Source: Actomonas aquatica
GTDB lineage: Bacteria; Verrucomicrobiota; Verrucomicrobiia; Opitutales; Opitutaceae
NCBI RefSeq assembly: GCF_019679435.2
Contig: NZ_CP139781.1
Coordinates: forward strand, 4,125,753 to 4,189,752
Length of the DNA stretch: 64,000 bases
Direction of reading: 5' to 3'
Shown: piece after piece, positions 1,388-18,374 of the stretch
Layout of the letters: each line of letters starts with the position of its first letter
Numbering within the stretch: the first letter of the stretch is position 1
Made by a program: the position numbers and the translations under genes
The notes under the pieces: model-generated
The model's database searches: none
What the model was told of the DNA's origin: nothing
What the model saw: the letters and a program-made list of their open reading frames with translations, nothing else

Positions 1388-3211
1388 ATGAGCGTTTCTA
1401 GTCTGGTGGGCGTAATAGCGACCGGCGGTGGCGCCGTGACGGCCCCTCTGGCCGGAGCGGTGAGTGTGCTGCTGGTGCTGTTGCCGGGGCTGGCGTTGTC
1501 GCTGCTCACCCGGCCGGCGCATGCGGTGGAGCGGCTGGCGCACAGCGTGATCCTGTCATGCTTGGTTGGATACGTTTCATTCTGGGTTTACCTGCAGGAC
1601 TTTGCGTGGGGACGTTGGTTCACGATGGGGGTGCTGGGCGTGAGTGCACTGGCGTTGGGCGTCGCTGCGGTGGTGGCGCGGGCGAAGATATTTGAGGCGG
1701 AGTTGCTGCGGGTGCTGGGCATCGTGTTGGCGACGGTGGTGGTGTATCTCAGCGTGCTTAACCTGGTATCCTTCGACGGTTCACAAGGGCAGTTGGCGAA
1801 TACGTTTTTTTTCCCGCAGTGGAACGACAACACGGTGCAGGATTCGGCGGCGGCTCAGCTCTTTGCCGGGCAGTCGATGGAGAAGGTGGAAGGGTGGCGG
1901 CTGAGTGAGCGGCCGCCCTTGCAGGCGGGCTTCCTGGTGATGTCGGGCGTGCCGTTTTTCGGCTCTTCGCTGTGGCTGCAGGCGGCGGGGGTGGCGGTGA
2001 ATTCGCTGTGGGTGATCGCGCTGGCTTATGTCGGTTTGATGGCCGGGCTGACGCGGCGGGCGCTGGGCCGTGTGCTGTGGTTGGCGGTGTTGGTGGGTTT
2101 TTTATTCAACAGCAGTGTTTACGTCTGGCCCAAGCTGCTGGCGGGCACGTTGGTCGTGCTGGGTGCGGCCTATTGGTGGTATGCCGGCACGGGAGCAGCG
2201 ATGGGCGGTCGCTTGTGGCTCGGCATTGTGGCGTGGGGTGGTGCGTGGTTTGCGCATCCGGCGACTGGTTTCGCGGTGGGCCTGGCGGTCGCGTGTGGCG
2301 CGGTGGTGGGCTGGCGGATGATCCGGCAACGGCCGCCGCACCGCGTTTGGACGCTGGCGGTGTTGGCACTCACCTTGGCGTGGATGTTGGTGCCGTGGAG
2401 CCTTTACAAGAGCCGTCAGCCGACGGCAGAGAACGTGTTGCTGCACTACCATCTCGGTGGGGTCTTTGACGGGCAGACTGATGGATCGGTGGCCGATACC
2501 ATTGTCGCGTCCTATCAGCAGCGCTCGGTCGGTGAAGTGATGGCGCGCAAATGGAACAACCTGCGCACGCTGCTCCTCCCGTGGGGCGACTACGGCGAAG
2601 GGGCGATCGAATGGCGGCGCCGCGACTACTACCACCTGAGCGCGGCGCTCGGGGTGTTGAACGTCGGTTGGCTGGTTTGGCTGGCGCACGGAGTGGCGAG
2701 GTGGCGGAGGCGCCGAACGCCGGCGGCGGACGAAATGGAAACGGTTCCGCGGATGGGACCACCGTTCATTGGTGCACTGTTGGTGCTCGGGGTCTGGGTG
2801 CTGTTGGAGTTCGGGGCGTTGGCACCAGAGATCGCGGTGTGGCTGGAGCACGATTTTGGGCCGCCGCTTGCGCTGACGATTTTGCACCAAGGTTCCTACG
2901 CGCCCTACCTGTTGCTCGTGTTGGTGGCCGCGGCTTGGGTCGCTCAACTCCCGGACTGGGCGTGGCGCACGGTGGCCGGCCTGCACCTCGCGGTGTTTGG
3001 CTGGTTTTATGGACTCACGCCGCGAGCGCTGGATGGCGCCGGCGGCGTGAATATCGCAGTGGTCCTCACGCTGGGGGCAGGTCTGGCGGGACTCTGCCTC
3101 GCGTGTCTGGGCCGGTGGTCAGAGCCGCCTCACTCTTCGAGCGCGTCGAGCACGATGCCGGGGGTGAGGAGCTCGGGGAGGACGACCGGGTCGGGTTCGC
3201 CGGGTTTGTAG
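1388..3211 (+). CDS. Polytopic membrane protein, possible GT-C-type glycosyltransferase
   Basis: This 607-residue protein is dominated by about a dozen hydrophobic helices, beginning at residues 15-40 and 50-68. A first large non-cytoplasmic loop (about 135-180) carries acidic residues (FPQWNDNTVQD) and the short motif SERPPLQAG. That pattern resembles the first periplasmic loop of lipid-linked-sugar GT-C transferases such as the PMT/ArnT group. Resemblance is by architecture and a short motif only. GGGAG lies a few bases before the ATG. The last 27 or so codons run antisense into the 3' end of the dsbD-like gene (3130-3211), so the true C-terminus deserves care. No pathway partner is adjacent. 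Confidence 0.65.
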   Translation: MSVSSLVGVIATGGGAVTAPLAGAVSVLLVLLPGLALSLLTRPAHAVERLAHSVILSCLVGYVSFWVYLQDFAWGRWFTMGVLGVSALALGVAAVVARAKIFEAELLRVLGIVLATVVVYLSVLNLVSFDGSQGQLANTFFFPQWNDNTVQDSAAAQLFAGQSMEKVEGWRLSERPPLQAGFLVMSGVPFFGSSLWLQAAGVAVNSLWVIALAYVGLMAGLTRRALGRVLWLAVLVGFLFNSSVYVWPKLLAGTLVVLGAAYWWYAGTGAAMGGRLWLGIVAWGGAWFAHPATGFAVGLAVACGAVVGWRMIRQRPPHRVWTLAVLALTLAWMLVPWSLYKSRQPTAENVLLHYHLGGVFDGQTDGSVADTIVASYQQRSVGEVMARKWNNLRTLLLPWGDYGEGAIEWRRRDYYHLSAALGVLNVGWLVWLAHGVARWRRRRTPAADEMETVPRMGPPFIGALLVLGVWVLLEFGALAPEIAVWLEHDFGPPLALTILHQGSYAPYLLLVLVAAAWVAQLPDWAWRTVAGLHLAVFGWFYGLTPRALDGAGGVNIAVVLTLGAGLAGLCLACLGRWSEPPHSSSASSTMPGVRSSGRTTGSGSPGL

Positions 3212-5298: not shown

Positions 5299-6279
5299 TT
5301 AGCCGGTGACGTCGTGATGAAACAGGCGGGTGGAGTAATAACGTTCGGCGCGGTCGCAGAGGATGGTGGCGACCTGGGCTTGTGGGCCGAGTTCGTGGGC
5401 GAGGTGCAGGGCGGCGCAGAGGTTGGCGCCCGAGGAGGTGCCGACGAGCAGGCCGAATTCGCGAGCGAGGCGCTGGGTCATGGCGAGGGCGTCGGCGCTG
5501 CTGACCTTGCATTTGCGATCGATCGGCGCCTCGCGCACCAGCGGCGGCACGTAGCCACCGGCGATGCCTTCAATGGCGTGACAACAGGGCAACTCGCCAG
5601 CAAGCATGGCGGCTTCGGACGGCTCCATCGCGACGACGAGGGTGTCGGCGTGGGCGGCTTTCAAGGCGCGACCGCAACCGGTGATGGTGCCGCCGGTGCC
5701 GTAGCCGGACACGAAGGCATCGACGCGGCCGCCGGGAATCTGGCGCAGGATTTCCGGGCCCGTGGTTTCCTCGTGGTCCTGCGCGTTGAGGGGGTTCTCA
5801 AACTGGCAGGGCAGGAAATAACGCGGATCGGCGGCGGCCATCTCGCGGGAGAGCGCGATGCCCGTGCCGTAACCATCGGTGGTGGTGAAGAGCTGGATCG
5901 ACGCGCCGAAGTGGCCGATGAGGTGGCGACGTTCCACGCTGGCCGATTCGCTCATGAGGATCTTCACGGCGTAGCCCTTGGCGGCGCCCACCATGGCGAG
6001 CGCGATGCCGGTATTGCCGGAGGTGCACTCGAGAATGATCGAACCAGGATGCAGCAGCCCGCGCTTCTCGGCATCGTTGATGATGTGCAGCGCGAGACGG
6101 TCTTTGATGGAGCCCGACGGATTCAGATACTCGGCCTTGGCGTAGATGGTTATCCCCTCGGCAGCGAAGTGCAGCGGCAACAGGGGCGTATTGCCGATAA
6201 GATTGAGCACGGGCGAAGAGGCCGCGGCGGAGCGGGAGGCGGACGCGTAGGGCATGGCGAAGGGAAGGTGAGCCTTCAT
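5299..6279 (-). CDS. Cysteine-synthase-like PLP enzyme, copy 1
   Basis: This fold-type II PLP protein is close to O-acetylserine sulfhydrylase and cystathionine beta-synthase. Lys59 in NPSGSIKDR is the expected Schiff-base lysine. TSGNTG at 87-91 binds the substrate carboxylate, GYGTGGTITG binds phosphate, and GTSSGAN lies near the C-terminus. I start it at 6279 because that ATG overlaps the peptidase stop codon (TAATG), which implies translational coupling; an in-frame ATG at 6306 also exists. Length is about 326 residues, normal for the family. Unusual features are ILMSESAS where CysK has MPE, and a double cysteine in GELPCCHAIEG. Real substrates may not be acetylserine plus sulfide. It shares both deviations with the paralogue at 9166-10152. 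Confidence 0.88.
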   Translation of the reverse strand: MKAHLPFAMPYASASRSAAASSPVLNLIGNTPLLPLHFAAEGITIYAKAEYLNPSGSIKDRLALHIINDAEKRGLLHPGSIILECTSGNTGIALAMVGAAKGYAVKILMSESASVERRHLIGHFGASIQLFTTTDGYGTGIALSREMAAADPRYFLPCQFENPLNAQDHEETTGPEILRQIPGGRVDAFVSGYGTGGTITGCGRALKAAHADTLVVAMEPSEAAMLAGELPCCHAIEGIAGGYVPPLVREAPIDRKCKVSSADALAMTQRLAREFGLLVGTSSGANLCAALHLAHELGPQAQVATILCDRAERYYSTRLFHHDVTG

Positions 6280-9125
6280 TATTGGAACTGGCGGGTGGTC
6301 TTCCAAGCCTCGCGATCGGTGAAGGTGGCGGGCACGGCGGACTCGGTGTGGTTTTCGCCGGAGAGCAGCACGAGGCGCTCGCGTTTGCCGGGGCCGCTCA
6401 GAACGTTCGTCAACAGGCTGACGAGTTCGGGCTGGGTGAGCTCCTCGAGGGCGGCGAGGGTGGCGGCGCGGCGTTCCCAGTCTTCGTCGTAGGTGAAGGC
6501 GAGGCTGAAGAAGCGGCCGGCTTTTTCGGCGAGACTCTTGTCCTTGGCTTCGAGGTTGGAGCGGGCGCCGGAAATGAGGGTGGCGAACGCCTCGGGGGAG
6601 AGCTCAGCCAACTGCGCGGGCAGCGTGGCAATGAAGGTCTCGGCGCGCTCCCGCAGGGCGTCGGGGTCGTGGGTGCTGGATTGGATCACGAAGTAGAGCG
6701 AGCGGGTCTGGCGGGAGCTGCTGCTGCCGGCGCCGACGATGTAACCCAGTTGCTGGCTGGTGCGCAGCTCGTTGAAGAAGGGCTGGGCGATGAAATTGCC
6801 GAGCACGGTGGCGGCGGCGCGCTGGCGGGCGTCGGCGCCAGGCAGGAAGAGCTGGGTGCTGAACACGGAATTCACGCCCGCCGTGGTGTCGACATCGGCG
6901 ATCACTTCACCGGGCTCCTGCAGAAGCTCGCGGGGCCGGCGTAGTTTATCCTCGGATACGGCGGCGAAGTCCAAGCCGTCGCGCAGCTCCCGCGATGTGG
7001 TCAGCGCGGTCTCGGGGGCGACGTGGCCGTGCACGATACCTTCGAGCGTGCCGGCGGCAAAAAACGCTTCGGCGACGGCGGCAACCTCGTCCCATGTGGC
7101 GGCTTCGGCGGTCGGCAGGAGTTGGTCGGGCAGAAAGTTGTAGGCGTTGCTCCAGGCGCTGCGGCGGGCGTTGGCGAGTTGGAAGGCTTCGGTCTGCGGG
7201 AAGCTGCGCAGCGTGCGCAGGTAACCTTCCTTGAGGGCGGCGAAACGTTCGGGGGTGGGCGCGATGTGCGGCAGCAAGTCCACGGTTTCGCGGGCGAAGC
7301 GCAGTGCGGAGTCGCCGAAGCCGGTCACGGTGAGGTCGAAGCCGGTGGCGGAGACGCCGACATTGAAGCTCAGACCCGCGCGAGCGGCTTCATCGGCGGT
7401 GGCGTTGAGCGCGTCGCCGAGGCTGGCCTCGAAGAGGGCGAGCAGGGCGGTTTCGCGTGGACTGATCGCGGCGCCGGCCGGCACGAAGCGGAAGCGCAGG
7501 CTGGTTTGCGGACGTTGAAACTCGAGGTCGGGCGCGTAGAAGAGGGTGAGGCCGGGCTCGCGGGTGAGCAGGGTGGGGCGTTCGACGAGGAGGCTGGGAG
7601 CGGCCGGCACGTAGGGATTGGCGCGGGGGAGGGCAAAGGTGCCGTCGGCCGGGTCGCGGGCGTCGAGCAGGCGCTGGTAGGCCGGGCCGGTGTCCTCAGA
7701 ATATGAATACGCGGTGCCGTAGAACTCCTCGGTGCGGTCGGTGGGGACGCCCTTGGCGGTGAACACGGCGATCAGGTTGTCGGGCGTGAGCTGGTTGAGG
7801 ATGTTGCGGTAGTCGGCTTCGTCCGGCGCGACCCAGACGTGGGGCACGCGTTCGGCGACGGCGAGTGGGTAGAACAGCGCCTGGTTGGCGAGAGCGGTGG
7901 CGAGGCGGGCGCCTTCGCCGCGGTCGTTGTAGGTCTCGTTGAGGGCGGCGATGCGGGCGGTCTCCTCCCAGAGGGTGGTGGGGAATTCGCTGTGCTGGAG
8001 GAAGTCGATGTAGCCGAAGATGAGGTCGAGGACGCGGGGGAGATCCGCGGCGCCTTCCGGCGTGAGCGACACGCTGAGGCTGAGGGAACTGTAGTCGGCC
8101 GTGCGGTCCCAAATGCCGCCGCCGGCATTGAGGGCGAGACCGGCTTCTTTGAGGGCGTGTTCGAGTCCGCCGGCGCTGGAGTGTGAGAACAGGCGGGCGA
8201 TCAGTGCATCGTTCTTGGCCCCGAAGTTGGTGCGGGTGGCGGTGAGCGGAAACTGGAGTTGCAGGGCGCGCACCTCGCGCACGGGTTCGACCTGCGCGAG
8301 ACGGAAAGCGGCCAGGCGTGGTTGGTAGGTGGCGGTGTGGTGCAGGGGGCCGAGTTCGCGATTGGGGATGGCGGAAAAGTGGCGACGCGCCATGGCCTCG
8401 AGTTCGGTGAGCGGGGCGGCGCCGGTGATGGCGAGCGCCATGCGGTCGGCGCTGTAGTAAGCGTTGAAGAAGGCGCGCACGGTGGCGGAGTCGGCGTGGG
8501 CGAGCGTGTCCTTGTTGCCGGCCGTGAAGCGGGACTCAGGCGAGTCGGGGGCGTAGAGTTCGCGCATGACATTGTAGATGCGGCGGCCGTCGTTCTGGAC
8601 GTGGCGCATGACCTCGTTGTGCACCGCGTTGACTTCACGCTCGGTGAAGGTGGGGGTGAAGAGCGGGGCGATGAAAAACTGGGCGAAACGGTCGAGGGTG
8701 TCGTCGAGCGCCTCGTGGCGGACTTCAAACTGGTAGTTGGTGTGGTCGGAGGAGGTATAGGCGTTGGTGTAACCGCCGTTGTTTTTCACGAAGGTGCCGT
8801 ATTCGCCCTCGTCGGGAAATTTTTCGGTGCCGAGGAAGAGCATGTGCTCGGTGAAGTGGGCGAGGCCGGTGGCTTCGAGTGGGTCCTCCAGCTGGCCGAC
8901 ATGAACGGCGAGCGCAGCAGCGGATTTGTTGAAGGAGGGATCGCTCACCAGCAGCACGCGCAGGCCGTTGTCCAACACGAGTCGGCCAAAGGTTGCCTGA
9001 TCGGTCGGGGCGACTTCGCGCGGCGGCAAGTCTGTCGGCCGGGCGGTGGCGTGGGTGGCGGTGGCGGTGGCGAGTGCGGCCAGGAAGGTGCCGGCCAGCA
9101 GAGAGAGGCGAAGGAGTCGGGTCAT
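6279..9125 (-). CDS. Periplasmic M16 (pitrilysin/insulysin-type) zinc peptidase
   Basis: The 948-residue protein starts with a signal peptide (about residues 1-27, ending in an Ala/Thr-rich cleavage region). The inverted zinc motif is complete: H90-F-T-E93-H94, then E171 exactly 76 residues after H94, which is the classic HxxEH(X76)E arrangement of active pitrilysins. The length matches single-chain M16A peptidases with four homologous domains rather than the two-subunit forms. M16 enzymes enclose and cut peptides of roughly ten to a few tens of residues. It is flanked on both sides by cysteine-synthase-like genes and coupled to the downstream one by a TAATG overlap. A role in trimming an imported or home-made peptide is inferred from context. 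Confidence 0.92.
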   Translation of the reverse strand: MTRLLRLSLLAGTFLAALATATATHATARPTDLPPREVAPTDQATFGRLVLDNGLRVLLVSDPSFNKSAAALAVHVGQLEDPLEATGLAHFTEHMLFLGTEKFPDEGEYGTFVKNNGGYTNAYTSSDHTNYQFEVRHEALDDTLDRFAQFFIAPLFTPTFTEREVNAVHNEVMRHVQNDGRRIYNVMRELYAPDSPESRFTAGNKDTLAHADSATVRAFFNAYYSADRMALAITGAAPLTELEAMARRHFSAIPNRELGPLHHTATYQPRLAAFRLAQVEPVREVRALQLQFPLTATRTNFGAKNDALIARLFSHSSAGGLEHALKEAGLALNAGGGIWDRTADYSSLSLSVSLTPEGAADLPRVLDLIFGYIDFLQHSEFPTTLWEETARIAALNETYNDRGEGARLATALANQALFYPLAVAERVPHVWVAPDEADYRNILNQLTPDNLIAVFTAKGVPTDRTEEFYGTAYSYSEDTGPAYQRLLDARDPADGTFALPRANPYVPAAPSLLVERPTLLTREPGLTLFYAPDLEFQRPQTSLRFRFVPAGAAISPRETALLALFEASLGDALNATADEAARAGLSFNVGVSATGFDLTVTGFGDSALRFARETVDLLPHIAPTPERFAALKEGYLRTLRSFPQTEAFQLANARRSAWSNAYNFLPDQLLPTAEAATWDEVAAVAEAFFAAGTLEGIVHGHVAPETALTTSRELRDGLDFAAVSEDKLRRPRELLQEPGEVIADVDTTAGVNSVFSTQLFLPGADARQRAAATVLGNFIAQPFFNELRTSQQLGYIVGAGSSSSRQTRSLYFVIQSSTHDPDALRERAETFIATLPAQLAELSPEAFATLISGARSNLEAKDKSLAEKAGRFFSLAFTYDEDWERRAATLAALEELTQPELVSLLTNVLSGPGKRERLVLLSGENHTESAVPATFTDREAWKTTRQFQ

Positions 9126-9165: not shown

Positions 9166-10152
9166 CTAGTTTTGGGACGAACGAGGGGCGGAAAACCCTA
9201 CGTCAAAGGCGTCGATTGGCGGAAAAAGCTGAGTGGAAAGGTAACGGTCGGCCCGATCACAGAGGACGGTGGCGACCTGAGCGGCAGGCCCGAGCTCACG
9301 GGCGACACGCAGAGCCGCGATGATGTTGGCGCCGCTGGAAGGTCCGACGAAGAGGCCATAATCACGGGCGAGGCGGCGGGCGGCGGCGAAGGCTTCCGCA
9401 CTGTCGACGCGTTCGGTGCGATCGAGGCGAGCTTGGCGGAGCAGGGGCGGTTGAAAGCCGCCAGTGAAACCTTCGATCAGTTCACAGCAGGGCAGCTCGG
9501 CAAGGGTGCCGTGGCCTCCCACCGCTTCGACCGCGACGAGTTGGCAATCGGGATTGGGCTCGCGCAGCGCGGCGCCGCAACCAGCGAGCGTGCCACCGGT
9601 CCCGTAGCCGGCGACAAAGGCATCGACCTGACCGTGCGGAATTTGCGCGAGGATTTCGGGGCCGGTGTGGGTGGCGTGGTCGGCGACGTTGCGCGGGTTT
9701 TCGAATTGGCGGGGCAGGTAGGTGTGTTCCGGGTCGGTGGCGGCCATTTGTTCGGCGAGAGCGATGCCGCTGAGGTAGCCCTGGTTGGCGCGAAAGAGGG
9801 TGAGCTCGGCGCCGAGGTGGCGGATGAGATGGCAACGTTCCGCGCTGGCGGAGTCACTCATGAGAATGTGCACCTTGATGCCGAGCCGGGCGCCGAGGGT
9901 GGCGAGCGCGATGCCGGTGTTACCGCTGCTTACTTCGACGACGCGGAGGTCGGGGGACGGGGCGCGCGTCCGTAACAGATCATTGAATACAGTCGCGGCG
10001 AGACGGTCTTTGATGGAGCCGGAGGGCAGCAGATATTCCGCCTTGGCGTAGAGCGTGACGCCTTCCGCCGAGAAGGGCAGCGCCAGCAGCGGCGTGGGGC
10101 CGGGCGAGGGCAGTGGCGGCGGGCGGTGGGAGGATGCGGAGGGTCTAAACAT
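9166..10152 (-). CDS. Cysteine-synthase-like PLP enzyme, copy 2
   Basis: This paralogue of the protein at 5299-6279 has 328 residues. Lys48 in LPSGSIKDR is the PLP lysine. The substrate loop reads SSGNTG instead of TSGNTG. GYGTGGTLAG and GPSSGAN are present. Like copy 1 it has ILMSDSAS after the substrate loop and a double cysteine (AELPCCELIEG), so the two form their own subfamily by eye. The N-terminus is proline-rich and short of the usual first helix. It is the first gene after the regulator and lies 40 bases before the M16 peptidase, so the cluster is probably one transcript from a promoter near 10230. Two non-identical copies in one operon suggest distinct steps or a hetero-oligomer. 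Confidence 0.86.
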   Translation of the reverse strand: MFRPSASSHRPPPLPSPGPTPLLALPFSAEGVTLYAKAEYLLPSGSIKDRLAATVFNDLLRTRAPSPDLRVVEVSSGNTGIALATLGARLGIKVHILMSDSASAERCHLIRHLGAELTLFRANQGYLSGIALAEQMAATDPEHTYLPRQFENPRNVADHATHTGPEILAQIPHGQVDAFVAGYGTGGTLAGCGAALREPNPDCQLVAVEAVGGHGTLAELPCCELIEGFTGGFQPPLLRQARLDRTERVDSAEAFAAARRLARDYGLFVGPSSGANIIAALRVARELGPAAQVATVLCDRADRYLSTQLFPPIDAFDVGFSAPRSSQN

Positions 10153-14300: not shown

Positions 14301-14354
14301 TTCCCGCGGAGCTCCTTCGTCTTTTCTCCCTCCTTGCCGTTTCGGCCTTTGCCC

Positions 14355-15581
14355 ATGTCTCCCTCTTTGCTCTCCCGTTCTCTTTTTTCCCGTCTGTTGC
14401 CGGCGGCGCTCCTGGCCTGCGCCGTCGCGCTGCGGGCGCAGGACGAACCCTCCTCCAATGATCCCGCGCAGGAAGCCGCGTGGGCCGAAGTGCAGGCCAT
14501 CATGACGCGGCCCTCTTCCTTCGCCGACAAACCGCGTGATGAACTCACGCCTGCGGACCGGCGGCTGGGTATGCGGGAGTCGGATCAGCGCAGTCAGGAC
14601 CTGGAAGCCGCCATCGATGCCTACGTCGCGACCTATCCGGATGATCCCCGCCGGTTGAATGTTTTCGTGATGCTGTCGTATCAGCCTCCTCACTACATCA
14701 CCGGATTCACCTCGGCGGATGATGAAAATCCGACGTGGGGGAGTCTCGAGGGCGACGAGGTCAAGGCGGCGGCCTTTGCCGAACGCCAATGGCAGCGCAT
14801 CGACGAAGTGCTGGCTTCGTCCGACGCCACCGAGCGCGAAATCGGGGGAGCCTTCTACAGCCGCTACGTGGATACCCGCAGCGTTTTTCTGGACGATCGC
14901 ACCGAGGAGAACCGGCAACGCTTCCTCGACGTGGCCGCCGCGATGATGGACCGCCTGCCCGATGCCGCCGGCCGCCTGGTGCGCGAGCACACGGGTTTTC
15001 TGCAGGAGTATGGCACCGAGGCCGAACAGGCCGCGTTTTTTGCCCGGCTTGAATCCAGCGAGGACCCCGAGGTGCAGCGCATGCTGGCGGAGGCCAAGGG
15101 CGACTACAGTCGTTTCGACGGCATCGCCGAGACCGCCTTCACCGCCGCCGATGGCCGTGAAGTCGACCTGACCAAGATGCGCGGCAAAGTGGTGTTGATC
15201 GACTTCTGGGCAACGTGGTGCGGTCCCTGTATCGCCGAGATTCCCAATCTCGTGGCCAACTACGCCAAATACCACGACCAGGGTTTTGAGATCGTGGGGA
15301 TCACGCTGGAAAACTCCGGGGTGCGCAGTGGTTTCGACGATCCCGCCAACGCCCCCAAGCTGGCGGCCGCCAAGGCTCGCATGCTCGCCTTTGCGGACAA
15401 GCGTGAGATGCCCTGGCCGCAATATTTTGACGGCAAGTTCTGGCAGAACGATCTCGCCCAGCGTTACGGCATCAACGCCATCCCGGCCATGGTGCTGATC
15501 GGTCCCGACGGCGAAGTTGCCTCGATCGAGGCCCGCGGACCCGAGCTCGAGCGCCAGATCAAGCGCCTGCTCAAACTTTAA
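14355..15581 (+). CDS. Exported TlpA-like thioredoxin with a long N-terminal helical domain (copy 1)
   Basis: From the ATG at 14355 the protein has about 408 residues. A signal peptide ends near LRAQDEP. About 250 residues of helix-rich sequence without a recognised domain follow. The last 140 residues are an AhpC/TSA/TlpA domain beginning GREVDLTKMRGKVVLIDF and carrying WCGPC (in WATWCGPCIAEIP). It has the cis-proline region IPAMVLIGPDG. TlpA/ResA proteins reduce periplasmic disulfides and receive electrons from CcdA/DsbD proteins. Its pairing with a TonB receptor, and a DsbD in the neighbouring cluster, point to thiol chemistry on the imported ligand. A paralogue with the same layout lies at 23572-24729, also directly behind a TonB receptor. 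Confidence 0.9.
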   Translation: MSPSLLSRSLFSRLLPAALLACAVALRAQDEPSSNDPAQEAAWAEVQAIMTRPSSFADKPRDELTPADRRLGMRESDQRSQDLEAAIDAYVATYPDDPRRLNVFVMLSYQPPHYITGFTSADDENPTWGSLEGDEVKAAAFAERQWQRIDEVLASSDATEREIGGAFYSRYVDTRSVFLDDRTEENRQRFLDVAAAMMDRLPDAAGRLVREHTGFLQEYGTEAEQAAFFARLESSEDPEVQRMLAEAKGDYSRFDGIAETAFTAADGREVDLTKMRGKVVLIDFWATWCGPCIAEIPNLVANYAKYHDQGFEIVGITLENSGVRSGFDDPANAPKLAAAKARMLAFADKREMPWPQYFDGKFWQNDLAQRYGINAIPAMVLIGPDGEVASIEARGPELERQIKRLLKL

Positions 15582-15615
15582 CCGGTAGCGGCGGGTCCGT
15601 GCGCTGTCGCCGGCG

Positions 15616-15767
15616 TTGTATCAAGCAACGCATTACGGAGGATGTTCATGTCCTTCCGCTGCCGTTTCCCTTTCAGCTGTAGTTGTTGTTGGGCCCGGGT
15701 AGCCCGTTGCGGGGCCCGGGCCTGTTTGGCTCCTGAGCAGCCGGTGCGTTTTCCCCTTGGCAGGTAG
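15616..15767 (+). promoter_or_regulatory. Attenuator-like leader: overlapping mini-ORFs and a GC-rich hairpin
   Basis: A GGAGG at 15637-15641 sits six bases before an ATG at 15648 that opens a 39-codon frame (to 15767) with the cluster FSCSCCW. The +1 frame (TTG at 15616 to TAG at 15702) reads four consecutive valine codons and then GPG-stop. Both frames run into a hairpin, GGCCCGGG (15692-15699) with CCCGGGCC (15715-15722) and an inner CCCG/CGGG pair, followed by TGTTTGG. Leader peptides with runs of one amino acid before a terminator are typical of transcription attenuation. The frame with the good ribosome site is the cysteine one. The valine frame fits the aminotransferase-like gene downstream but has only a TTG start. 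Confidence 0.4.
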
Positions 15768-15796
15768 CCGGGCTTGGTGCCTGTAACTGGGCCGTT

Positions 15797-16555
15797 ATGA
15801 TGATGGGTTCTCCCGGGATACGGATCGCAATGTGGTCGGGGCCGCGGAACATCTCCACGGCGTTGATGCGCAGCTTCGGAGCGCGCGCGGATTGCGCGGT
15901 GACCGACGAGCCGTTCTACGCCCACTACCTGCAGGCCACCGGCATCGTGCATCCGGGCCGCGAGGAGATCATCGCCTCGCAATCCACCGATGCGACCGAG
16001 GTCGCGACCTGGCTGAGCGGTCCGCCGCCGGAAGGGAAGGCGGTGTGGTATCAAAAACACATGACGCATCACCACTTGCCGGGCATGCCGACGGACTGGT
16101 GGGAGACCGTGCGCCACGCCTTTCTCATTCGCGAACCGGCCGACATGCTCACCTCGTTGCTTGAGGTGTTGCCGCAACCCGACCTCGAAGCCACCGGCCT
16201 GCCGGGGCAGCGACGTATCTACGATTCCATTACAGCCCGCCAAGGCGGTGTGCCGCCACCGGTGATCGATTCGCGCGATGTGTTGCGCAACCCGGCGGGC
16301 GTGTTGCGCGCCCTGTGCGAGCGCCTCGGTATTGCGTGGGATCCGGCCATGCTGCAATGGGCGCCGGGCCCGCGGCCAACCGACGGCGTGTGGGCGCGGC
16401 ATTGGTATCGCAACGTCGAGGCCTCGACCGGGTTTGCGCCCTACCGGCCGAAGGACGCAGTGGTGCCGGACGGCTACCGCTCCGTGTTGGCCGAAGCCGA
16501 GGACCTGTATGCCGAGATGGCGCAGCATCGGCTGCAGGTGCCCGACGTATCCTGA
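15797..16555 (+). CDS. Sulfotransferase-like P-loop protein
   Basis: The 252-residue protein opens with IAMWSGPRNISTALMRSFGAR (about residues 10-29). This matches the 5'-phosphosulfate-binding loop of PAPS-dependent sulfotransferases (G-x-x-R-x-x-S/T). A second signature-like segment, HAFLIREPADMLTSLL, resembles the 3'-phosphate loop (RxPxxxxxS). There is no signal peptide. Three ATG codons in a row begin the frame; I take the first. Twelve bases separate it from the aminotransferase-like gene, so the two are almost certainly co-transcribed. I recall plant proteins annotated as branched-chain-aminotransferase-like that fuse the same two domains, but have not checked this here. Whether sulfotransfer really occurs is unknown. 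Confidence 0.75.
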   Translation: MMMGSPGIRIAMWSGPRNISTALMRSFGARADCAVTDEPFYAHYLQATGIVHPGREEIIASQSTDATEVATWLSGPPPEGKAVWYQKHMTHHHLPGMPTDWWETVRHAFLIREPADMLTSLLEVLPQPDLEATGLPGQRRIYDSITARQGGVPPPVIDSRDVLRNPAGVLRALCERLGIAWDPAMLQWAPGPRPTDGVWARHWYRNVEASTGFAPYRPKDAVVPDGYRSVLAEAEDLYAEMAQHRLQVPDVS

Positions 16556-16567
16556 ATTTCTCCCGCC

Positions 16568-17470
16568 ATGCTCCAGCCCTACTACGAAAAGAACGCCAAC
16601 CTCATCGTGAACCTCAACGGTCGCCTCGTGCACCGTGATGAGGCGGGGGTGTCGCCCTTTGATTCGGCGGTGCAGAACGGCGACGCGGTGTGGGAAGGGC
16701 TGCGGCTTTACGCGGGGCGGGTTTTTCGGCTGCAGGCGCACCTCGACCGCCTGCGACGCTCGGCGGAACTGCTGCAGTATGCCGGTTACCCCGACGATGA
16801 GACGCTGGTGCGGGAACTCGTGCGCACCTTCGAAGCCAACGGTATGTTCGACCACGTGCATGTGCGCCTGACGGTGAGCCGCGGACTCAAATACACCTCC
16901 GGCCTCGACCCGCGCATCAACACGCGGGGGTGTTCGTTCTTCATCCTGCCGGAGTGGAAGCCGCCGGTCTACGATAAGTCCGGCATCACCCTCGCCACGG
17001 CCCAGCACCGGCGACCGCCGCCCAACGTGCTCAACCAGCACATTCACTCCTGCAACCAACTCACCAGCATCCTGGCCAAGCTCGAGGCCAATGCGGCGGG
17101 CGTCGATGATGCGCTCATGCTCGATCTGCAGGGCAACCTGGCCGAGACCAACGCTACCCACGTTTTCGGTGGGCGCGGCGACACGCTCCATACCTCGACC
17201 ACCGTGGCATGTCCGGAGGGTATCACGCGCAGCACGGTGCTGGAGCTTTGCCGCACGCACGACATCCCGCACGAGGTGCGCGACATCCCGCGGGCGGAGT
17301 TGGACGAGATGGACGAACTGTTCGTGACGGGAACGATGGGTGAACTCGTGCCGGTGGTGCGGCTCGATGGACGCACCTTCAAGCCCGGGCCGCTCTATGC
17401 TCGCCTGAGCGAACTGTTCGCCGGCGAGGTCGCGCGGTCGGCCGATCCGCTACTGGTGGAAACACGCTGA
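16568..17470 (+). CDS. Class IV aminotransferase homologue with the catalytic lysine replaced by histidine
   Basis: The 300-residue protein has the BCAT/D-amino-acid-transaminase fold. DAVWEGLRLYAGRVFRL is followed by HLDRLRRSAELL, where Arg61 matches the PLP-phosphate arginine. NLAETNATHVF holds Glu193, which in the family binds the pyridine nitrogen. VTGTMGELVPV gives the phosphate-binding Thr. The Schiff-base lysine should lie three residues before the Asn of the SxNxL segment (IKSLNLL in Bacillus D-aminotransferase). Here that segment reads QHIHSCNQL, so His160 occupies the lysine position. Codons at about 17038-17055 are unambiguous. Canonical transamination therefore seems unlikely; a lyase, PLP carrier or non-PLP role is possible. 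It is coupled to the sulfotransferase-like gene and may be attenuated by the leader upstream. Confidence 0.85.
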   Translation: MLQPYYEKNANLIVNLNGRLVHRDEAGVSPFDSAVQNGDAVWEGLRLYAGRVFRLQAHLDRLRRSAELLQYAGYPDDETLVRELVRTFEANGMFDHVHVRLTVSRGLKYTSGLDPRINTRGCSFFILPEWKPPVYDKSGITLATAQHRRPPPNVLNQHIHSCNQLTSILAKLEANAAGVDDALMLDLQGNLAETNATHVFGGRGDTLHTSTTVACPEGITRSTVLELCRTHDIPHEVRDIPRAELDEMDELFVTGTMGELVPVVRLDGRTFKPGPLYARLSELFAGEVARSADPLLVETR

Positions 17471-17498
17471 TCGCCCGTCGACCCTTTTGCTGAACGCC

Positions 17499-18374
17499 AT
17501 GGCTCAACCTGTATCCACTTCGTCCCGACGCCGCGATCCGCGCCCGCGCACCTGGCGTGACCTTTGCCTGGTGGTGCTCGGCTCACTCATCGTCGCGCTG
17601 GGCTTCAACCTGCTGCTGCGTGCGGGCGGCATCGCGCCGGGTGGTGTGCCCGGAGCGTCGTTGGTGCTGCAGCGATTGAGTGGGATCGAGCCGGCGATCT
17701 GGCAGGCGTTGCTCAATGGCGCGCTGCTCATCTTCGGTGGTCTCATGCTGGGGCGCGGGTTTCTGGTGCGTTGCGCGCTGGGCTCGGCATTGGTGCCGAC
17801 CTTCGTGGCGCTCACGCGCGAGCTGCCGCCGCTCACACAGACGCCGTTGTTGGCCGCGATCTGTGGTGGGGTGACGGTGGGAATCGGCATTGGTCTCGTC
17901 TTCCTCGGGCGCGGCTCGGTGGGCGGCTTCAGCACGGTGGCGATCGTCTTGCACCGCAAGTGGGGCTGGGCGGTGGATCGCTCCATCATGGCGCTCGACG
18001 GGGTGGTGATTGCGGCGGCAGCGTTTGTGTTTCCGACGGAGCAGGCGCTGTGTGCGATCGTGGCGGCGGCCTTGCTCAGTCGCACGGTGCGCCGGGTGTT
18101 GAGTGGCGGTGATCACGCCAAACTTGCCCTCATCGTGACCTCGCAACCGGCGGCGGTGGCCGATGCGGTGCTGCACGAGATCGACCTCGGTCTCACGCGC
18201 CTGAGCGGCGAGGGTGGCTACACTCGAGAGGCGCGCGACATACTCATGGTGGTGATGCGCCCGAGCGACACGCCACGACTAAAGCGGGTGATCAAGCAGC
18301 ACGACCCGCGGGCCTTTTTGACCCTCACCGACGCCAGCGAAGTGCTGGGCTACGGCTTCAAGATGCACGAGTAG
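17499..18374 (+). CDS. YitT-family membrane protein (DUF161/DUF2179)
   Basis: About 291 residues from the ATG at 17499. Five to six hydrophobic segments make up the YitT/DUF161 half, with the family pattern GFNLLLRAGGIAPGGVPGASL near residues 35-55 and GIGIGLVFLGRGSVGGFSTVAIVL around 130-153. The C-terminal 80 residues (HAKLALIVTSQP to the end) form a soluble DUF2179 ferredoxin-like domain, including GLTRLSGEGGYTREARDIL. YitT proteins are widespread inner-membrane proteins without an agreed substrate. The gene follows the aminotransferase-like gene by 28 bases in the same direction and may belong to the same transcript. Confidence 0.9.
   Translation: MAQPVSTSSRRRDPRPRTWRDLCLVVLGSLIVALGFNLLLRAGGIAPGGVPGASLVLQRLSGIEPAIWQALLNGALLIFGGLMLGRGFLVRCALGSALVPTFVALTRELPPLTQTPLLAAICGGVTVGIGIGLVFLGRGSVGGFSTVAIVLHRKWGWAVDRSIMALDGVVIAAAAFVFPTEQALCAIVAAALLSRTVRRVLSGGDHAKLALIVTSQPAAVADAVLHEIDLGLTRLSGEGGYTREARDILMVVMRPSDTPRLKRVIKQHDPRAFLTLTDASEVLGYGFKMHE

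Follow-up and report, generated by a model that had tools for sequence, protein, structure and literature searches.

The stretch of Actomonas aquatica DNA analysed here, 64,000 nucleotides in length and referred to as the window, contains a gene that raises a specific question: what can a class IV aminotransferase homologue do when the lysine that forms the Schiff base with PLP is missing? The gene (16568..17470, + strand) starts with ATG and has an intact frame for 300 residues, and its product is a member of Aminotran_4 (PF01063, E 6.2e-42; 144.4 bits compared to a cut-off of 28.5), the only Pfam family found for it at E 0.001. None of the 20 NCBIfam models listed, those for IlvE/BCAT, D-amino-acid transaminase and PabC among them, is matched above its cut-off, and the best, PRK08320, gives 195.8 of 363 bits. 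Since the best NCBIfam models bear the name of branched-chain aminotransferases, class IV proteins such as this one are easily mistaken for those enzymes. The AF2 model (64 sequences; pLDDT 93.2) is that of a complete fold type IV protein. It matches BCAT structures with Z scores of about 30-35, and the closest solved structures are 7z79 (Z 36.2), deposited under the title of an aminotransferase-like protein from Variovorax paradoxus, and its N174K mutant, 9j32 (Z 36.4 over 296 residues).

The first-pass annotation had read a histidine, residue 160 (codon CAC, 17045..17047, + strand), at the place of the Schiff-base lysine, and this is borne out by alignment: the Lys of NIKSLNYL in 5mqz lies opposite H160 of QHIHSCNQL, a repeat with MAFFT agrees, and the same residue lies opposite the Asn of 7z79 that the title of the 9j32 mutant numbers N174. 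In the AF2 model, H160 is at the start of a predicted helix (160-177). Relatives were taken from a scan of GTDB genome contigs, of which the best 80 of 116 matching loci were used, and from 387 Verrucomicrobiota genomes scanned at E 1e-55, which gave seven loci including the window's own. With the copy from the window itself and a duplicate locus (L005 = L015) taken out, 85 loci remained, which together with the window make 86 aligned rows. Their record titles assign the loci to Verrucomicrobiota, Planctomycetota, Bacteroidota, Actinomycetota, Melainabacteria, Pseudomonadota, Poribacteria and Fraserbacteria, or about eight phyla; for metagenome bins such titles may be in error. A search at E 1e-60 of 61 genomes from the family to which the window belongs gave no match besides the window's own, and a search of viral contigs gave no relatives.

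Alignment of these homologues, which had been suggested as the way to check the invariance of His160, gives histidine in all 86 rows and, after thinning at 80% identity (some loci are near-copies), in 57 of the remaining 57. One of the six search patterns held the motif itself (NQHIHSCN); the histidine is not an artefact of that pattern, because 72 of the 86 rows read IHH, which an IHS pattern cannot select, the other 14 reading IHS. The PLP-phosphate Arg, the pyridine-N Glu and the phosphate Thr are kept, as had also been claimed: R61 of the phosphate cup (16748..16750, + strand; present as well in 39/39 lysine-type rows), E193 (17144..17146, + strand) and T220-R221 of the phosphate-site GITR motif (17225..17230, + strand) are identical in 86/86 rows, the best 80 of the 116 GTDB loci included, and so are N163, H98 and H58. 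Position 256 is Thr in 64 rows and Ser in 22. A functional pair formed by H158 and H160 finds no such backing and is rejected, as H158 is not conserved (His in only 9/86 rows and Lys in 69). We regard the Lys-to-His exchange as confirmed; it is real, conserved and fixed in the His family.

The lysine is retained by other class IV proteins of the same genomes. A PF01063 search of 18 genomes, chosen for carrying a His-type gene, gave 66 matches, and each genome holds at least one match besides the His type, the window's own genome having two (L002, L003). Among the 48 non-His-type paralogues, Lys is in the aligned column in 36 and one column off in two (L147, L149), and the other 10 show no residue at this place where the profile match ends short; neither His nor Asn occurs there among these 48, 10 of them being without a readable residue. 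In the set of 39 lysine-type rows used for comparison, 37 have Lys, and the remaining two (A and T) look like one-column misalignments, reading AKA in L149 and AKT in L147.

The protein of known structure, 7z79, leads to a second lysine-less branch. With 7z79 as the query, 398 Pseudomonadota genomes gave 47 matches at E 1e-40, 41 of which reached E 2e-75 or better. Motif readings cover 32 of these 41, namely 30 loci, G733 and G436, the last of which is of the His type. Asn occupies the lysine place in all 30 loci among the matches listed, and thus in 31/31 rows with 7z79. The place of the pyridine Glu is taken by Ser in eight rows and Thr in 23, and the cup residues R61, T220 and G255 are kept. 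The window protein, with His and Glu at these two places, is not of the 7z79 type. Five derived residues are nevertheless common to both branches. Trp42 (16691..16693) and His98 (16859..16861) are present in 57/57 His-branch and 31/31 Asn-branch rows and in 0/39 of the lysine type, and the corresponding counts are 57/57, 31/31 and 5/39 for Glu129 (16952..16954), 55/57, 31/31 and 2/39 for Asn195 (17150..17152), and 57/57, 30/31 and 7/39 for Cys215 (17210..17212, all + strand). We take W42 and H98 to be the equivalents of Phe36 and Tyr95 in the substrate pocket, in E. coli BCAT numbering. Two further residues, Q36 and M257, are invariant and newly derived in the His branch.

Phylogeny agrees with this division. 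In a first tree, from which the motif columns were omitted and which included the 39 lysine-type rows, the His family is on one side of a branch with an SH-aLRT support of 95, and the His family and 7z79 are together separated from the lysine-type rows with a support of 99. In a second tree, in which 12 long-branched lysine rows were dropped and Asn rows were added, the His group and the Asn group each stand on one side of a branch (support 99), and the split between lysine-type and lysine-less rows has a support of 74. Both trees are quick searches with SH-aLRT support only. On these sequence data, the His family is one clade and the Asn branch, with 7z79, is its sister.

A handle on the substrate is given by the gene next to it. 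Twelve bases separate the aminotransferase homologue from an upstream sulfotransferase gene (Sulfotransfer_5, 15797..16555, + strand, 252 residues), which matches PF19798 with E 8e-57 (192.7 bits, cut-off 23.2). Its AF2 model (pLDDT 96.1) has Z scores of 13.7-14.0 to TPST1 and to the olefin-synthase (4gox) and CurM (4gbm) sulfotransferases, and CurM is the first solved sulfotransferase by sequence profile (E 2.3e-9). In CurM, the sulfotransferase activates a hydroxyl for elimination. Across an alignment of 51 sequences, P16, R17, S20, K87, H92 and R112 do not vary, which, on our reading of the motifs, fits a functional PAPS enzyme. With a profile of the window's sulfotransferase, copies on the same strand and no more than 1.2 kb from the His-type gene were counted as linked, over 87 rows that include the window and the duplicate L005. 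The sulfotransferase adjoins the His-type gene in 72 of the 87 rows (the best 80 of 116 GTDB loci included), and in L026 it is just downstream. The other 14 rows are without an adjacent sulfotransferase; for two of them (L010, L064) the sequence upstream is too short for a verdict. PF19798 is located elsewhere in the genome for L033, L039, L049, L066, L070 and L073, and the genomes of L004, L006, L007, L011, L012 and L013 have no PF19798 match at E 1e-5. A fusion of the two genes was looked for and occurs in none of the 87 rows.

The same pairing is seen in the Asn branch. Within the 398 Pseudomonadota genomes, 41 encode the lysine-less protein, 38 have PF19798 (E 1e-10) and 37 have both, so that PF19798 is found in 37/41 carriers of the lysine-less protein versus 1/357 of the other genomes (Fisher p 2e-46, a value that ignores relatedness, as do the genome counts). 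The one exception, G797, has a weak PF19798 match (E 1.5e-16) and no lysine-less protein. In 28 of the 37 genomes the two genes are adjacent, with the sulfotransferase downstream in 25 and upstream in three, one of which is the His-type G436, and in nine they are unlinked. Conversely, G675, G700, G733 and G787 have the lysine-less protein without a PF19798 match; three of these, G675, G700 and G787, which have none at E 1e-10, are the closest relatives of 7z79 in the 398-genome sample. PF19798 occurs in five of the 387 Verrucomicrobiota genomes, four of which have the His type, and gave no match in 14 control genomes. In the fifth Verrucomicrobiota genome, G351 (L206, around 5300-7200), an intact PF19798 sulfotransferase lies beside a frame-broken Asn-type gene. 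The linkage of the sulfotransferase to both lysine-less branches is strong. The sulfotransferase is not strictly required, since six His-branch and four Asn-branch genomes have no PF19798 match, and as gene order differs between the branches, the linkage has probably been kept or remade for function.

A YitT-type membrane protein gene is located downstream of the aminotransferase homologue and is not counted as part of the unit. In a genome of the same genus, G020, the YitT gene (81% identical) and a TlpA-like gene lie within about 8.5 kb (compared with 14334-18374 in the window), and neither PF19798 nor a His-type gene was found in that genome at the thresholds used. The nearest relatives of the window gene are the planctomycete-labelled loci L010 and L023 and, as the pair is variable within the genus, this suggests that the window pair was acquired by horizontal transfer. 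An M24 metallopeptidase-like gene lies directly upstream of the aminotransferase gene in L004, L006, L007, L011, L012 and L013, the six loci whose genomes gave no PF19798 match, and there takes the position that the sulfotransferase has in other loci. These genes are of two types that are 27-35% identical to each other, and no curated M24 name reached its cut-off for them; by eye, we take the metal-ligand motifs of the L011 protein to be intact. At L195 (5601-6876, + strand) an M24-like gene is divergent from an Asn-type gene that also adjoins a sulfotransferase. With six His-branch loci of two types and this one Asn-branch locus, M24 was rejected as a general third member, and an M24-like gene of L207, which sits among SfsA and RadC genes, was discarded. 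Genes for TlpA-like proteins (16 loci), OmpA (12), RecA (4) and AIR carboxylase (5) are also conserved neighbours, and from the locus lists we take them to be lineage-specific synteny and not partners. In the window, a thioredoxin-domain (TlpA-like) gene (14334-15581, + strand) precedes the pair, and at L072, one of the cluster of 16 loci, a TlpA-like gene (1775-3047) comes just after the aminotransferase gene; the two proteins match over the thioredoxin part only (25% over 146 columns, E 7e-13). In four of 13 Asn-branch regions (L192, L193, L194, L202), the gene directly follows that of an amino acid type ABC transporter ATPase. SBP_bac_3 and two permeases are found by Pfam in L194 only, the other three resting on similarity of the ATPase, and the best NCBIfam scores of the L194 ATPase are to HisP, TcyN and EhuA, all below cut-off. 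The window also has a PALP-family (cysteine-synthase-like) PLP enzyme (9166-10152, - strand; PF00291, E 1.4e-64), whose own lysine motif is, we presume, SGSIKDR.

We now put forward a tentative mechanism, to which we give slightly less than an even chance, in which the window protein is a remodelled, lysine-independent fold type IV enzyme that acts in one pathway with the PF19798 sulfotransferase and combines aldimine-free PLP or PMP with chemistry by His160. The Schiff-base lysine would have been given up and the substrate pocket remodelled. By analogy with enzymes described below, PLP or PMP is probably held non-covalently in the old site in the His branch, and the cofactor aldehyde or amine would react directly with the substrate. 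In place of the lysine, His160, perhaps together with His98, would make the proton transfers, a role that falls to a histidine in the fold type I enzymes ColD/E1, and would thus probably function as the acid-base. The substrate, to go by the ABC transporter ATPase genes next to some Asn-branch members, is probably amino-acid-like and may be modified by the sulfotransferase before or after the lysine-less enzyme acts, for example by sulfonation of a hydroxyl; that the sulfate is installed as a leaving group is our guess from the resemblance to CurM. We do not expect ordinary multi-turnover aminotransferase activity.

The main doubt about the use of B6 comes from the Asn branch. Because that branch has the same partner and has lost the pyridine Glu too, the function common to both branches may not need PLP chemistry and might proceed without B6. 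A serious rival to the proposed mechanism, which we consider possible if somewhat unlikely, is therefore that the clade has left B6 chemistry altogether. The cup would now accommodate an anion ester of another kind (of sulfate or phosphate, for instance what the sulfotransferase makes), and catalysis or binding by H98, E129, H160 or N160, and N195 would need no cofactor. The Asn branch fits this well, as it has replaced both the Lys and the Glu in all 31 rows while keeping R61, T220 and G255, and it pairs with the same sulfotransferase. The His branch speaks against it, since it keeps the pyridine Glu in 86/86 rows, and it is hard to see what this residue would do if no pyridine ring were bound. 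That the protein has no catalytic function at all, and is a pseudoenzyme that binds or regulates the sulfotransferase, would account for the strong pairing of the two genes, but we judge it improbable. The many pocket residues that are newly derived and invariant (W42, H98 and C215 across the two branches and also, within the His branch, Q36 and M257) are unlike the product of decay, and the protein is present without a PF19798 match in six His-branch and four Pseudomonadota genomes.

Quite improbable, in our view, is that the protein works as an ordinary PLP enzyme whose aldimine is formed by a different lysine (K108, K131 or K171). K108 and K131 are indeed conserved in 86/86 His-branch rows and K171 in 85/86, 27 of the 31 rows of the Asn branch also have Lys at the K108 position, and the loop that bears K108 is presumably near the subunit interface, as in BCATs. 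Nevertheless, in the Asn branch K108 is replaced by Arg in four rows and K131 by Ser in 13 of 31. Lys171 (in SILAKLEA), which had been named as a possible aldimine lysine, is rejected as a very unlikely stand-in because it is also present in relatives that bear the normal Lys, is Cys or Leu in 31/31 Asn-branch rows, and lies 11 residues further along the same predicted helix as H160. A single-strain mutation or a pseudogene has a negligible probability, being refuted by the histidine in 86/86 rows, the intact frame and purifying selection (NG86 dN of 0.22-0.32, well below dS of 1.07-1.67, with four relatives; dS is near saturation). With the single-strain mutation refuted and Lys171 very unlikely, both alternatives in the first-pass annotation, PLP bound without an internal aldimine and a new chemistry, stay live.

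A broader version of the proposal is that PF19798 and the lysine-less class IV protein, in both its His and Asn branches, form a widespread two-gene pathway for a reaction, so far undescribed, of an amino-acid-like compound in which the sulfotransferase activates the substrate and the old pocket finishes the reaction aldimine-free. We offer this as speculation that is unlikely to hold as a whole; if it did, fold type IV would have reached the Lys-to-His solution of ColD independently and then dropped B6 chemistry in the Asn branch. Whatever its reaction, this clade, which record titles place in about eight phyla and which occurs in 41/398 Pseudomonadota genomes sampled, cannot use the standard lysine mechanism at the position where it normally operates. 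As the clade is paired with a single sulfotransferase family, the substrate can be approached directly through the partner, and the two branches (one with His and Glu, the other with Asn and no Glu) offer a natural experiment in the conversion of a PLP site. In a literature search, mostly without subscription papers, we recognised no paper that deals with 7z79, with a class IV protein lacking the lysine or with its pairing to a sulfotransferase. In the portions available, PF19798 is merely listed in PMC11625862 and PMC12506393, and of these two, PMC4867686, PMC5131300, PMC4783884 and PMC8987622, only the last has a bearing on mechanism. No family description that we found explains the family; its fold and the replacement of Lys by His are known from other enzymes, and the sulfotransferase setting was not found in print.

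How, then, does the window protein compare with known systems? It is most like 7z79, which it matches in fold over its whole length (Z 36), in the absence of the lysine, in W42, H98, E129, N195 and C215, and in the pairing with PF19798 seen in most 7z79 relatives of the 398 Pseudomonadota genomes. They differ in that 7z79 has Asn where the window protein has His and Ser/Thr where it has the pyridine Glu, and in the 7z79 branch the sulfotransferase is mostly downstream rather than upstream as in the His branch. With PRK08320-type BCATs (5mqz, 5cm0, 5e25), the protein shares the fold, about 35% identity by structural alignment, the phosphate cup and the pyridine Glu. In contrast to the window protein, these enzymes have the lysine, and its score of 195.8 bits is below the cut-off of their model; the lysine-type rows have Phe or Tyr at the place of W42 in 38/39 cases and none has His at position 98. 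In plants, a fusion protein joins a sulfotransferase-like part to a class IV aminotransferase part. The sugar 3-dehydratases ColD, E1 and SpnQ have, like the window protein, His in place of the catalytic Lys. They are of fold type I, with an aspartate-aminotransferase-like fold, act on sugars and are of an unrelated lineage, whereas the window protein fits fold type IV over its whole length. According to the available text of PMC8987622, ColD/E1 use PMP as the cofactor with the His as an acid-base and proton mover, and the H220K variant of E1 carries out a transamination that is not catalytic, as the cofactor is not regenerated. ColD/E1 are the nearest mechanistic precedent for a class IV protein in which a histidine stands in for the lysine.
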